Shown here: positions 37,811 through 61,748 of the stretch, piece by piece
How the letters are laid out: each line of letters opens with the position of its first letter
Numbering within the stretch: the first letter of the stretch is position 1
NCBI RefSeq assembly: GCF_003058365.1
Contig: NZ_CP028858.1
Location: forward strand, 682,001-746,000
Direction of reading: 5' to 3'
Length of the DNA stretch: 64,000 nt
Source of the DNA: Halococcoides cellulosivorans
Lineage (GTDB): Archaea > Halobacteriota > Halobacteria > Halobacteriales > Haloarculaceae
Position numbers and translations under genes: made by a program
Notes under the pieces: generated by a model
Databases searched by the model: none
What the model saw: only the letters and a program-made list of their open reading frames with translations
What the model was told of the DNA's origin: nothing

Positions 37811-37885
37811 GGGTTGGTGGTCTAGTCCGGTTATGACGGCTCCTTCACACGGAGCAGGCCCCAGGTTCAACTCCTGGCCAACCCA
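37811..37885 (+). tRNA. tRNA-Val (CAC anticodon)
   Basis: 75 nt. The acceptor GGGTTGG pairs with CCAACCC followed by discriminator A, the anticodon stem-loop CTCCTTCACACGGAG gives CAC, and the T arm is CCAGGTTCAACTCCTGG. It reads GUG valine codons. It is followed after about 20 nt by a T-tract and the hairpin cassette. Confidence 0.96.
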
Positions 37886-37903: not shown

Positions 37904-37914
37904 ACCTTTTTCTG
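37904..37914 (+). terminator. T-tract after tRNA-Val
   Basis: ACCTTTTTCTG begins about 19 nt after the tRNA 3' end. Archaeal intrinsic termination needs only a T-rich tract, and the same sequence follows EF-2 in the second hairpin cassette. Confidence 0.55.
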
Positions 37915-38135
37915 TCGTTCGAGAGAGCTCCGCTCTCTCGTGATGACGAAAGAGCGCTCTGCGCTCTTTCGAACCACGTCGGGTCGCCTTCGGCGACCGC
38001 GTGGCGGCGGAAGCCGCCACGTCATTCGGTTGCGGGCCATATGGCCCGCAACCTGCTCCTTGAAAAATCTGGACCAAAAAGACCTCGACCTCGCTCCGCT
38101 CGGTCGAGTGATACGGCGGCCGGAGGCCGCCGTAT
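37904..38135 (+). repeat. Seven-hairpin cassette, copy 1
   Basis: Seven inverted repeats stand in a row between tRNA-Val and the serine-hydrolase gene: 37920-37940, 37947-37971, 37982-37998, 38001-38020, 38028-38053 (26-nt perfect palindrome), 38084-38108 and 38111-38135. Most have 7-11 bp arms and 3-4 nt loops (TCC, TCT, TTC, GGAA, GGA); the sixth is imperfect. The first 97 nt (37904-38000) recur in inverted orientation at 59451-59547 with one mismatch. An A-rich motif, GAAAAATCTGGACCAAAAAG, at 38062-38081 recurs in variant form in copy 2. Not a known IS or CRISPR structure. Confidence 0.85.
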
Positions 38136-38297: not shown

Positions 38298-40265
38298 CTA
38301 CAACGGTATTATTCCGAGCACGGACAGTGGCCAGACGAACAGCACCGCGAATGCCGTCGCCAGCGTGTAGTGAACCCGGGCCAGACGGCCCCAGTACTCC
38401 TCACGCCAGGCGATGAGCGTCGCGGCGACGGCCCCGATCGTTCCGGCGAGCGCAATCCACCGGAGGATGAGTCCAGCCCGAAGCGCCAGCGACGGCGAGG
38501 CGGCCTCGGCGTTGAAGTTGATCCAGGCGAGCACGAAGATGGCCAGGACGACCAGCCAGAGCAGACTGACACCGCCGAGCAGCCACCGGGCTGCGCGCTC
38601 GCTGTCGGTCGGCGTGTCGTGGCCACCGCGTCGGCGTCGGATGGCCCCGCCGATCCCGGCCGCGACCACCGAGAGGAAGGCCATCACGCTCGCGGCGAGC
38701 AGCGCCTGGATCACTGTCAGCGACTCTGCGGCGGGGACGCGTTCGTAGGTCGCCGGCCCGAACGCGTGCCGGTACATGTGAGTCGCCCGTCCGTCCTCGT
38801 CGAACTCGAAGACGAGCATGTCGTTCCCGTCGGGGGCCAGGTAGACGCCTGGCTCGCGCTCGACCCACGTGCGCGTCCCCTCGCCCATCCGGGTCGTCGT
38901 GAGCTCACCCGCATCAGTCGCGCCGACAGTATACGTCCGGGTCGTCACGCCGAGGATCCGCTCCCAGGAGGACCCGGCGATCGTCAGGGATCGGTAGTCG
39001 CCGGCGAGTGCCTGGGCGCGTTCGGCCGCGCCGGCGGGTGCGGTCGGGGCCGATCCCGGCGCGTCAGCTCGTGGGTAGTACCGCTCTGCGAACGCATCGA
39101 GGAGGGCAGTCCGGGCCTGGTTCCCACCGGGGCTGTTGTAGACGACGAACAGCCCCGTGTCGTGGGCGGGAACGAGCGCGAGCAGGCTACTAAATCGGGG
39201 GGTCGTCCCCCAGTGGCCGACGGTGCGCTCGTCGGTGCGATCCATCTCGATGAATCCGTAGCCCATTCCGTTGAGGTTCGGGACGGCTGCGGATTTCGTC
39301 ACGTGCCGGCGCTGCATATCTCGGATGCTTTCGGCGGTGAGGAGTGCCGACTCGTCCTCGTCGAGGTGTGCGAGCATGAACTGACCCATGTCGGTCGCGG
39401 TCGTCCGCATCGACCCGCCCTCCGGCGGAAGCGTCCAGACGGGTGGCTCGTGGGCCTGGAACGAGCCGTCCCGAGCAGTGTACCCGATCGCCCGACGCTG
39501 TTCGAGGTCGGTCGGCAGCGGCTGGGCGTAGGTGGTGTCGTCCATGCCGAGCGGGCCGAAGATTCGCTCGTCAGCGTAGTCGGTGAATGCCATCCCGGAC
39601 TGCTCGGCGACGACGTGGCCCGCCAGGGCGGTCCCGTAGTTGGAGTATGCGACGTACTGGCCCGGGGGCCTGACGCGTGCGGGCTGGTGATCGGTGAGGA
39701 TCGCTTCCACCGATCGAATCTCACCCGGATCGTCGGTGACCATTCCCGCGACGCTGTCCTCGAAGCCCGCCGTGTGTGTTCCGAGGTGTTGGAGTGTGAC
39801 GGGCTCGGAGAACGTGTCTGGGACCGAAACGGTGGATTCGGTCAGGTACGCGTTGACGTCACGATCGAGGTCGAGGTGGCCGTCCTCGACGCCCTGCATT
39901 ACGGCCGTCCAGGTCACCAGTTTTCCCGTCGACCCGACACTGAAGACGGTCTCGTCGGCAACGACCGACCGCCCGGTGTCGAGATCGGCCATGCCGTACC
40001 CCCGTGCCAGCACGATCTCGCCGTCGGCCACGACGACGACGGCAGCGCCGGGGATCTGATACTCGTCGAGCTGGTCGGGCATCGTCTCGTCGAGCCAGGC
40101 CGTGAGCTCAGCTGACTCGATCTGATCGACTGTCGTGACGCGATCATTGTCAGAGACGACGCGATCCGGTGGTCCGGTGGATGGCGCTGCCATCACGATC
40201 GGGGCGGACAGCACGGCGGTGACGAGAACGAGCACGGCGGCGGTGTGAATGACGTGAAACTGCAT
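38298..40265 (-). CDS. Exported/membrane serine hydrolase, class C beta-lactamase-like
   Basis: 655 residues from the ATG at 40265, which places a hydrophobic signal segment (residues 6-28) at the N-terminus. The serine-hydrolase motifs are SVGSTGK (SxxK), YSNYG (YxN) and HWGTT (HxG). The C-terminal 170 residues contain four to five membrane helices. The catalytic domain would therefore be outside the cell, anchored by the C-terminal helices. Relatives include D-aminopeptidases, esterases and penicillin-binding-like proteins; the substrate is unknown and archaea lack murein. Confidence 0.85.
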   Translation of the reverse strand: MQFHVIHTAAVLVLVTAVLSAPIVMAAPSTGPPDRVVSDNDRVTTVDQIESAELTAWLDETMPDQLDEYQIPGAAVVVVADGEIVLARGYGMADLDTGRSVVADETVFSVGSTGKLVTWTAVMQGVEDGHLDLDRDVNAYLTESTVSVPDTFSEPVTLQHLGTHTAGFEDSVAGMVTDDPGEIRSVEAILTDHQPARVRPPGQYVAYSNYGTALAGHVVAEQSGMAFTDYADERIFGPLGMDDTTYAQPLPTDLEQRRAIGYTARDGSFQAHEPPVWTLPPEGGSMRTTATDMGQFMLAHLDEDESALLTAESIRDMQRRHVTKSAAVPNLNGMGYGFIEMDRTDERTVGHWGTTPRFSSLLALVPAHDTGLFVVYNSPGGNQARTALLDAFAERYYPRADAPGSAPTAPAGAAERAQALAGDYRSLTIAGSSWERILGVTTRTYTVGATDAGELTTTRMGEGTRTWVEREPGVYLAPDGNDMLVFEFDEDGRATHMYRHAFGPATYERVPAAESLTVIQALLAASVMAFLSVVAAGIGGAIRRRRGGHDTPTDSERAARWLLGGVSLLWLVVLAIFVLAWINFNAEAASPSLALRAGLILRWIALAGTIGAVAATLIAWREEYWGRLARVHYTLATAFAVLFVWPLSVLGIIPL

Positions 40266-40362
40266 GTGGGCTGGGGTCGGTCTGTGGGTGATCGAGCAGG
40301 CGATCGATATCGATGCGAGGCGTGCAGGGTGAACGGGGGCCGTCCGGCGATCGCTCGTCGGG

Positions 40363-41013
40363 TCAGGCGGGGCGACGGTCGTCAACGTGGTTGGCACCGA
40401 CGAGTGCGCCGCCGACGGCGATCAACCAGATCATCACGGGATAGATAATCATCCGCTCGGTCCCGCCGTGGCCGATCGGCCCGAACGCGGCGGTGGTTCC
40501 GGCGTCACCGACGACCATCAGGCCGATGAAGACGAGGCCGACCACGCCGGCGACCACCGAGAGCGCACGCATCGCGCCCCCCAGTACGGACGCGCTGCCG
40601 ATCGCTTCCACGTTGAAAAACACGAACGCGAGCACTGCGGCGAGGCTGTGGAGGCCGCCGGTGTCGAGGGGGAACAGGCCGGCGCCGATGGCACCGACAC
40701 TCGCGATGGCGAAGATGGCGAGTAGCCATCCCCTCCCGTGGAGACGGTAGAAGGCGTATCCGCCGAGCAGGTTGATGACACCGGCGACGATCAGCGAGAG
40801 GTTGAACAGGAGCGCAGTCTCCGGGAACACGCCGAGGTCGCTGATGGCCCCGCCCTGAAAGTCGTAGCCGGAGACCATCGCCGCCGCGAGCATGATCGCA
40901 GTCATGAACTGGGCCGCGAGCGCGATGAATGCGATACCGGCCAGTGTCCGGGGATCGACGGCGATGCCGCGAATGTTGAAAACCGAGGTCGCAGATCGTT
41001 GGGTGTGTGCCAT
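40363..41013 (-). CDS. DUF998 family membrane protein
   Basis: 216 residues with about six membrane helices. The family signature GGAISDLGVFPE follows the first helix, and HSLAAVLAFVFFN lies in the centre. DUF998 proteins are distantly related to Frag1/cytochrome b561-like membrane proteins and have no firm role. Same strand as the serine hydrolase, about 100 nt apart. A strong AT-rich box lies just upstream. Confidence 0.85.
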   Translation of the reverse strand: MAHTQRSATSVFNIRGIAVDPRTLAGIAFIALAAQFMTAIMLAAAMVSGYDFQGGAISDLGVFPETALLFNLSLIVAGVINLLGGYAFYRLHGRGWLLAIFAIASVGAIGAGLFPLDTGGLHSLAAVLAFVFFNVEAIGSASVLGGAMRALSVVAGVVGLVFIGLMVVGDAGTTAAFGPIGHGGTERMIIYPVMIWLIAVGGALVGANHVDDRRPA

Positions 41014-59311: not shown

Positions 59312-59547
59312 CCCGCTCGCCGTGGCGAGCGGGTTCACCGGAATCGCCGGACGGCGATTCCGGGTCTTTTTGGTCGAGCTTTTTCGAGTCGAGCGGAACC
59401 GAAGGTTCCGCTGACCATGCGAACGGACGCTTCGCGTCCGTGAGCAGAGAGCGGTCGCCGCAGGCGACCCGACGTGGTTCGAAAGAGCGCAGAGCGCTCT
59501 TTCGTCATCACGAGAGAGCGGAGCTCTCTCGAACGACAGAAAAAGGT
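59312..59547 (-). repeat. Seven-hairpin cassette, copy 2
   Basis: Read on the minus strand from EF-2, it has the T-tract, then hairpins at 59511-59531, 59480-59504 and 59453-59469 (near-identical to copy 1). Two locus-specific hairpins follow (59423-59441, 59392-59412), then an A-rich motif (59360-59385, resembling 38062-38087), then two more locus-specific hairpins (59338-59363, 59312-59333). Stems are 7-11 bp with mostly 3-nt loops. The A-rich motif lies at nearly the same distance from the T-tract as in copy 1 (about 160 nt). Confidence 0.85.
59537..59547 (-). terminator. T-tract after EF-2
   Basis: ACCTTTTTCTG on the minus strand lies about 20 nt after the EF-2 stop codon and is identical to the T-tract after tRNA-Val. 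It fits an archaeal intrinsic terminator. Confidence 0.55.
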
Positions 59548-59567
59548 CGTCTGGAAAAGGTCGTCGT

Positions 59568-61748
59568 TTAGAAGTAATCGATGCCGGCGGGCAGTTCGAG
59601 CTTCATGCCTTTGCGCTCGCGGATCTGTGTGATGATGTCGGGCTGGAGGTTGTCGGCCAGCACGCGGAAGCCCGCGTTCTCGGTGTTCCAGGAGGCGCGG
59701 CCTTCGGTCGCCGACCGAATGTCGCTCGAAAATCCGATCATCTCCTCGACGGGCGCGATGCCCTCGATCACCATGACGTCGCCTTCCTGGTACATGTCGT
59801 CGACCCGGCCACGTCGGCCCTGAATCTCGCCCGATGCCGCGCCCATGTGTTCGCTGGGCACGTCGATCCGGACGTCCTGAATCGGCTCCAGGAGGCGGAT
59901 CTCGGCGTCGATCAGCGCGTTGTGGACGGCCTGGCGGACGGCGGGGACGACCTGGGCGGGACCGCGGTGGATGGCGTCCTCGTGCAGGCGAGCGTCGTGC
60001 AATCGGAGCAGCGACCCCTGGACCGGTTCGGCGGCCAGCGGCCCGTCGTCGAGGGCCTCTTCGAGCCCCTCGATGACGAGTTCCATCGTCTCGTTGAGGT
60101 GCTGAATCCCCTTCGTGTCGTCGATCAGGATGTTCGTCCGGTGGATCGTCTCGACCTCCTGGGAGGCCTCCTTCTCGAGGCCGGCGTCCTGGAGGGCTTC
60201 ACGCCGTTCGAGTTCGGGCATGTCCATCGACGCCTCGCCCATCTTGATCGTCTCGACGACGTCCTCGGGCAGCGGCTCGACGGTGATGTAAAACCGGTTG
60301 TGTCGGTTCGGAGAGATGCCCTCGACCTCTCGCGAGGCGGTCTGGGGGGCCTCGCGGAAGACGACGATCGGTTCACCGGTCGTGATCGGAATGCCCTGGT
60401 TGCGCTCGATGCGCTGGCCGATCACCTCGAGGTGGAGTTCGCCCTGTCCGGAGATGAGGTGCTCGCCGGTGTCCTCGTTGATCTCCACGTGGATCGTCGG
60501 GTCTTCTTTCGAGACCTGCTGGAGCGTCTCGATCAGCTTCGGCAGGTCGTCCATGCGCTGGGCTTCGACACTTTTCGTGATGACGGGCTCCGAGAGGTGC
60601 TCGATCGACTCGAAGGGCGTCATCTCGACGCTACTGACCGTCGAGCCCGCGATGGCGTCTTTCAGCCCCGTGACGGCGGCGATGTTCCCCGCGGGCACGC
60701 GACTCACTTCCTCGCGTTCACCACCCATGAACAGCCCGACCGACTGGAGGCGGTTCGTCCCGGCCGTCCCCGAGACGTAGAGGTCCTGGCCCTCTTCGAG
60801 CGTGCCAGAGAAGACACGACCCGTCGCAATCTCGCCGGCGTGGGGGTCCATCGAGATGTCCGTCACCATGAAGACGACCTCGCCGTCCTCGTCGACGAAG
60901 CGCATGCTCTCCGCGAGTTCCGAGTCCGCGTCGCCACGCCAGACCGTCGGAATCCGACGGGGCTGGGCGTCGACGGGGTTCGGGAAGTGCTCACAGACCA
61001 TGTCGAGGACGACGTCCGAGAGTGGCGTCTGCTCGTGGAGTTCCTGGCGCTTGTCCGCCCGCTCCAGATCGATGATGTCACCGAAGTCCATCCCCGTGGC
61101 GACCATCGACGGCTTCGAGACGCCCCACTTGTAGAGTGCGGAGCCAAAAGCGACCGTCCCCTCGTCGACCGAGACCGTCCAGTCGCGATCCCAGTCCTCG
61201 GTCATCCCGCGGATGAGTTCGTTCACGTCGTGGATGACTGCGAGCAGGCGTTCCTGCATCTCCTCGGGGCCCTCCTGCAGTTCCGAGATCAGCCGGTCGA
61301 CCTTGTTGATAAAGAGGGTGGGCTTGACGCCTTCTCGCAGCGCCTGCCGAAGCACGGTCTCGGTCTGGGGCATCGCGCCCTCGACGGCGTCGACGACCAC
61401 CATCGCGCCGTCGACCGCGCGCATCGCGCGTGTCACGTCGCCACCGAAGTCGACGTGGCCCGGCGTGTCGATCAGGTTGATGAGGTGGTTTTTCTCATCG
61501 TACTCGTGGGTCATCGAGACGTTTGCCGCGTCGATGGTGATCCCACGCTCCTGTTCGTCCTCTTCGGTGTCCATCGCGAGCTGTTCGCCCGCGGTGTCCT
61601 CGGAGATCATCCCTGCCCCCGCGAGCAGGTTGTCCGTCAGCGTCGTCTTCCCGTGGTCGACGTGGGCGGCGATCGCGATGTTGCGAATCTGTTCGGGCTG
61701 GTCCATCAGCCCCTCACATTCCTCGACGATCTGCGAGCGTCGGCTCAT
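59568..61748 (-). CDS. fusA: Translation elongation factor 2 (aEF-2)
   Basis: 726 residues, the archaeal EF-2 length. G-domain motifs [28 protein letters not shown] and NKVDRL are present, and domain IV carries the diphthamide loop ([16 protein letters not shown]). It drives GTP-dependent translocation on the ribosome. Upstream on this strand lies a 57-bp repeat array. Downstream is a T-tract and a hairpin cassette, the same 3' context as tRNA-Val. Confidence 0.98.

Follow-up and report, generated by a model that had tools for sequence, protein, structure and literature searches.

The window analysed here is a stretch of 64,000 nucleotides from Halococcoides cellulosivorans. It carries on its minus strand the EF-2 gene (59568..61748; Pfam GTP_EFTU, EFG_III, EFG_IV and EFG_C), whose 3' end precedes a hairpin-rich cassette read on the same strand. 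The cassette opens with the terminator-type T5C tract ACCTTTTTC (59539..59547), and a second tract, T4, lies near its start at 59555-59558. It is followed by a 62-nt insert that we call module A (59475..59536; pattern match at G000:C1:741475-741536, boundaries set by empty sites), made up of TCGTTCG, hairpin 1 (59511-59531), TGATGA, hairpin 2 (59480-59504) and AACCA. Hairpin 3, GGTCGCC TGC GGCGACC (59453..59469), is native to the base cassette and is present in the insert-free loci L348-L351. A second insert of 60 nt (59389..59448), absent from the base cassettes of the same genome, contains two hairpins of the module B type, TCTGCTCACGG..CCGTTCGCATGGTCA.., as also found in L056 and L102. The A-rich motif CTCGAAAAAGCTCGACCAAAAAGACC (59363..59388), conserved in all base cassettes, is a putative T-tract terminator for the opposite strand, and the cassette closes with two further base-cassette hairpins, hairpin 6 (59338..59363), whose stem is variable, and hairpin 7 (59312..59333), with the hinge GTGAA..ATGC.

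A twin of this cassette lies on the plus strand behind a tRNA-Val gene (37811..37885). It consists of a T5C tract (37904..37912), a module A insert with the identical 62 nt (37915..37976; G000:C1:719915-719976), hairpin 3 of the base cassette with the loop TTC (37982..37998), a second two-hairpin insert of 56 nt whose sequence is unrelated to the 60-nt insert (38001..38056), the A-rich motif TTGAAAAATCTGGACCAAAAAGACC (38060..38084) and hairpins 6 and 7 of the base cassette (38084..38135). A convergent gene of the beta-lactamase family (38298-40397, minus strand) lies downstream. When the minus strand from 59547 to 59451, read from EF-2, was aligned with 37904-38000, 96 of the 97 nt matched; the single mismatch falls within the loop of hairpin 3, a trinucleotide that reads TGC at the EF-2 locus and TTC at the twin. 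The initial annotation of this DNA had claimed exactly this identity, and it was also right that the layout is repeated, with three hairpins, two more of unrelated sequence, the A-rich stretch and two last hairpins at both loci, and that the EF-2-side locus is non-coding. Perfect hairpins (stem of at least 8, loop of at most 4) numbered 6 and 5 per 250 nt at the two loci; elsewhere in the window, and in 20 first-order Markov simulations, there were at most 2, so that chance is excluded. The folding z-scores of the two loci were -7.9 and -10.7. A third copy, 92% identical, is located some 59 kb outside the window (L003, G000:C1:805321-805417). The copies at 37904-38000 and 59451-59547 form an inverted repeat with a spacing of 21.5 kb, through which the stretch from tRNA-Val to EF-2 could become inverted.

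We searched 20 genomes with a 68-nt cassette query from which the first insert had been left out. It detected many more cassettes in the same genome and matched 15 of the 20 genomes; of the eleven loci that we fetched, ten were cassettes free of inserts and one was the third copy. The insert-free cassettes immediately follow tRNA genes (Arg, Gln, Pro), copies of tRNA 3' ends or a stop codon, and present in order ACCACCTTTTTC, one hairpin, AAAAA..AAAAA and two hairpins. Once their inserts are removed, the cassettes of the window align through the junction with these same-genome paralogues (L348-L357). The distances add up exactly, as 50+62+56=168 and 50+62+60=172, indicating that the near-constant spacing of the A-rich motif, to which the initial annotation had attached a meaning, is simple arithmetic, namely the insert lengths added to 50 nt of base cassette. 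Equal spacing is not a general feature either: measured from where the cassette begins, the A5 tracts of uninterrupted copies in the same genome come at roughly 44 and 57 nt, or at 52 and 65 nt for two of these copies, and not at about 160. The different stems at the two loci are accounted for by the second double-hairpin insert, which is unrelated between them (56 versus 60 nt).

In several cassettes the T5C tract directly follows the tRNA or the stop codon, a position just downstream of the gene as expected for a terminator, and on the opposite strand the A5 tracts read as T-tracts. From both features we infer that the base cassette would be a bidirectional terminator, placed 3' of tRNA and coding genes and dispersed in haloarchaea. 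The passages of PMC7237163 on terminators of Haloferax volcanii report that a T5C tract terminated 95% of transcripts in a reporter. The cassette resembles these terminators in opening with T5C after the gene and in its opposite-strand T-tracts, whereas the arrangement T5C-hairpin-A5 is absent from the passages describing them. We also observed a palindrome ahead of four cassettes (L003, L005, L006 and L010, at about 805k, 1739k, 1660k and 851k of G000), formed by an inverted and a direct copy of the tRNA 3' end around AGGGAACG..GTGACCG; its appearance would fit a duplication of the tRNA end by another element.

Module A reads TCGTTCG-hairpin-CGTGATGACG-hairpin-CGAACCA in both loci. Across haloarchaea its length ranges from 54 to 66 nt, and the only constant parts of these first two hairpins are GTTCG, CGTGATGACG and CGAAC, while the stems differ. 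Its flanks, when joined, match uninterrupted sequence elsewhere, both within this genome and among other haloarchaea. We scanned all candidate ends at 129 loci, seeking the exact 9+9-nt junction elsewhere. The boundary TC-GTTCG..CGAAC-CA (i=2, j=2) gave an exact junction for 23 of the 129 loci, against 0-5 for other boundaries, so that the inserted unit is TC..CA, with its ends set to the base. Junctions in the empty sites are clean G|C, without target duplication. The base to the left was G in all copies, including a set found without requiring G, the base to the right was almost always C, and CG often occupied positions -7/-6, which describes a linear preference ..CGNNG|CG... Such a preference fits better than insertion into hairpin loops, which we rejected as an obligatory rule because a flank stem of at least 7 bp occurred in only 24 of 128 cases (shuffled mean 8.7) and no fixed-loop rule emerged.

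When the phylum was sampled evenly, module A turned up in 21 of 28 haloarchaeal genomes, at 1-17 copies per genome, against none of 119 other genomes, and a reversed-pattern control gave no match. Among the matches listed by a scan of the contig collection, all were haloarchaeal; short-pattern matches on viral contigs were without paired stems and were dismissed as chance. Ends of draft contigs often break inside or beside module A (L033, L040; G028:C3, G028:C15, G032:C36), so that its copy numbers in draft assemblies are probably underestimated. About 20 of 149 copies (~13%) lay inside IS200/IS605 genes (tnpA/tnpB matches) or no more than 250 bp away from one, and many others in multi-hairpin intergenic arrays. 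Three copies lie inside tnpB or tnpA coding sequence: in L171 module A is in frame and the reading frame is open, in L111 it is antisense and the tnpA frame stays open, and in L103 it brings two in-frame stops. Selection for in-frame insertion was considered and rejected, as the length is a multiple of 3 in all three genic copies but also in 38% of all copies, and one of the three carries in-frame stops. In L327 the TG|CA of a double hairpin belonging to an IS200 left end likewise hosts module A, Russian-doll fashion; this site is empty in L320 and L321. Half-modules of mixed left/right type were found in L041 and L171.

Although the genome scan demanded no pairing of the stems, 134 of the 154 non-viral matches had paired stems, and these 134 copies displayed 123 distinct stem pairs. 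For hairpin 2, represented by 53 distinct 17-nt stems, the three most variable pairs were Watson-Crick in 48-53 of 53 cases, versus 21-26 expected if the two stem sides are taken as independent; the stems of hairpin 1 covary in a similar way. This excess means that pairing is kept, which could fit selection or palindrome correction alike: replication could turn imperfect palindromes into perfect ones and so preserve stem pairing, without any recognition by an enzyme. The replacement of stems under a conserved layout, noticed by the initial annotation at two loci, holds across the order, the hinges being fixed and the stems covarying. As for its proposal of modular exchange with selection on structure, the exact empty sites bear out the exchange, and selection on structure is plausible, with palindrome conversion as the alternative. 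The first stem pairs are R-Y, R-Y and A-T and the loop-closing pair is C-G; the loops are mostly trinucleotides, often mutual reverse complements (TTC/GAA, TCC/GGA), and 131 of about 150 left-type hairpins precede a TGATGA.

The genomes compared here present an exact unit, with empty sites, nesting, spread over the whole order, invariant hinges and covarying stems, and we infer that module A has moved as DNA. We consider it likely, judging from sequence comparison, that the locus is a terminator cassette invaded by non-autonomous double-hairpin mobile repeats whose folded shape would be read by an enzyme acting in trans. The chassis would be a terminator cassette placed 3' of tRNA and coding genes. 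Module A, i.e. hairpins 1 and 2, would insert into it between G and C without target duplication, and each locus would have received a second, distinct insert, hairpins 4 and 5. The enzyme supplied in trans would recognise the two-hairpin fold and the short hinges, and the stems may vary while remaining paired. The sites behind EF-2 and tRNAs would be tolerated harbours, where the hairpins may have no local job, and the three module A cassettes of this genome probably go back to a single insertion, after which the cassette was copied as a whole. A broader view, which we put forward tentatively and hold to be rather doubtful, is that modules A, B and D belong to a class of haloarchaeal mobile DNA copied by shape, nesting in each other and in terminators and forming many of the hairpin arrays. 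Just as tentative is the part of this view in which a host or trans-acting enzyme would read the hinge bases while the stems drift as long as they pair.

The identity of the enzyme may be contested without contesting mobility. Module A would then be an archaeal REP/REPIN doublet moved via single-stranded hairpins by IS200/IS605-type Y1 (HUH) transposases, a reading that overlaps with the mobile-repeat explanation and that we judge possible but improbable. Its hairpins are indeed paired head-to-head, with a 3' tail CCA as in CGTC-REPs (PMC3733652) and without target duplication, and the location of ~13% of copies inside or close to IS200/IS605 genes points the same way. Among 39 relatives, Y1 presence was associated with module A (15/5/6/13, Fisher p=0.01), but this association was gone in the wider sample of the order (6/7/4/2, p=0.63). 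Moreover, genomes with 17, 10, 8, 5 and 5 copies lack a Y1 gene, G109, G114, G133 and G138 have a Y1 gene without module A, and module A ends flank none of the 11 Y1 loci examined. Copy number follows neither Y1 nor TnpB genes and lends neither of them support as its driver. No autonomous element with module A ends, and no half-element flanking a gene, was found in 1.3 Mb of haloarchaeal loci, a weak test as this collection is enriched for module A. It is unlikely that transposition played no part and that the hairpins arose by template switching during replication together with gene conversion between terminator arrays. Perfect stems, mutually reverse complementary loops, mixed half-modules and identical copies within one genome would suit such a process; the hinges TCGTTCG, CGTGATGACG and CGAACCA are nonetheless alike across families with unrelated flanks, and module A enters coding genes at junctions exact to the single base.

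Fixed junctions with covarying stems are also typical of functional RNAs, and module A can be drawn as a three-way junction with the fixed joining strands GTCGTT, TGATGA and AACCAC and free stems. It could accordingly be read as a structured RNA, e.g. a protein-binding or cleaving element in transcript 3' ends, in keeping with the folding z-scores and with its frequent position after genes. We hold this to be very unlikely, since no Rfam covariance model matched at gathering or relaxed thresholds, the empty sites are exact, copies are inserted in tnpB and antisense in tnpA (L111), and both orientations occur with no constant host gene. Two specific RNAs were considered and rejected: a hammerhead ribozyme has a similar TGATGA core and three-way layout, but C3, GAAA and NUH are lacking and there is no Rfam match; for a box C/D RNA, TGATGA is like a C box but no D box was found by eye. 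Finally, the whole seven-hairpin layout might be one selected unit, such as an insulator or an mRNA-stabilising array, as the first part of the 3+2+A-rich+2 order is common to the two loci and the third copy. Hairpins 1, 2, 4 and 5 are missing from eight or more same-genome cassettes that likewise stand behind tRNA or coding genes, which contradicts such a unit as a general rule, and we hold it to be extremely improbable.

Taken as a mobile repeat, module A most resembles, among published kinds, the small mobile repeats (SMRs) of Haloquadratum walsbyi (PMC3119063), a likeness drawn from the published description of their features. SMR-A and SMR-B are about 80-110 bp long, identity among copies of a given type commonly exceeds 95%, and their mobilisation was called "enigmatic" in that 2011 description, which covered one species. 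Like SMRs, module A has terminal inverted repeats (TCGTTCG versus TGGTTCG, 6/7 nt), causes no target duplication and is, at 54-66 nt, too short for a transposase. SMRs often lie inside IS605-type palindromes or other mobile DNA, and SMR-A prefers near-terminal palindromes of IS605/PATE (PMC3119063). In contrast to SMRs, module A is shorter, has invariant hinges, is spread over the order and lacks high copy identity, with its 123 stem pairs in 134 copies. CGTC-tagged REPs and REP dimers (PMC3733652) share with it small palindromes, head-to-head dimers, the CCA tail and the lack of a known transposase; they are bacterial, with stems of 8-9 bp and loops of 4-5 nt, whereas module A has mostly 3-nt loops and the central hinge TGATGA, and the text of that paper mentions no haloarchaeal family. 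REP/REPINs further carry a GTAG/CGTC head and flank a RAYT gene, while module A has no such head before the stem and flanks none of the Y1 loci examined. PATEs and IS200/IS605 ends (PMC3119063) also have near-terminal hairpins and no target duplication, but PATEs are without terminal inverted repeats, and module A inserts into such ends and is not itself one. Rickettsia palindromic elements, in the passages of PMC10969869 that cite Ogata 2000, are likewise palindromic repeats within reading frames; these passages give them ~150 bp and a conserved peptide, whereas module A is genic in only three cases, one with in-frame stops. Compared with MITEs, module A lacks the usual target site duplication, and terminal inverted repeats shared with an autonomous transposon were not found, by the weak test mentioned above.

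We found no description of module A in the literature searched, an open-access subset, and it is an order-wide variant of an already described, unexplained kind of repeat. One such unit is here recognisable throughout an order by its hinges, with nearly no stem shared and with base-exact empty sites, which offers a defined substrate for an enzyme search. Such inserts account for the structured look of hairpin-rich 3' regions of haloarchaeal genes, and they caution that covarying stems alone are not proof of a functional RNA.

Other double-hairpin families were seen beside module A. Module B, a recurrent hairpin type with the hinges ATGCGAACGG..CCGTGAGCAGA, is nested in several arrays (L041, L044, L056, L102, L168, and 59389-59448 of the window). 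Haloarchaeal Y1 transposase genes (L318, L320-L325 and L327) carry at VPK|YRR a double-hairpin insert, TC-[GCGGAATC..]-TGACCTC-[GCGGAAC..]-TCAG, which is in frame in most of them, adds ~16 residues and represents a second family of such modules. In L324 and L325 the right ends of the IS, situated downstream of the Y1 gene, contain a CCTCGGGG..CCCCGAGG hairpin with a further double-hairpin insert whose linker is GTATCC.
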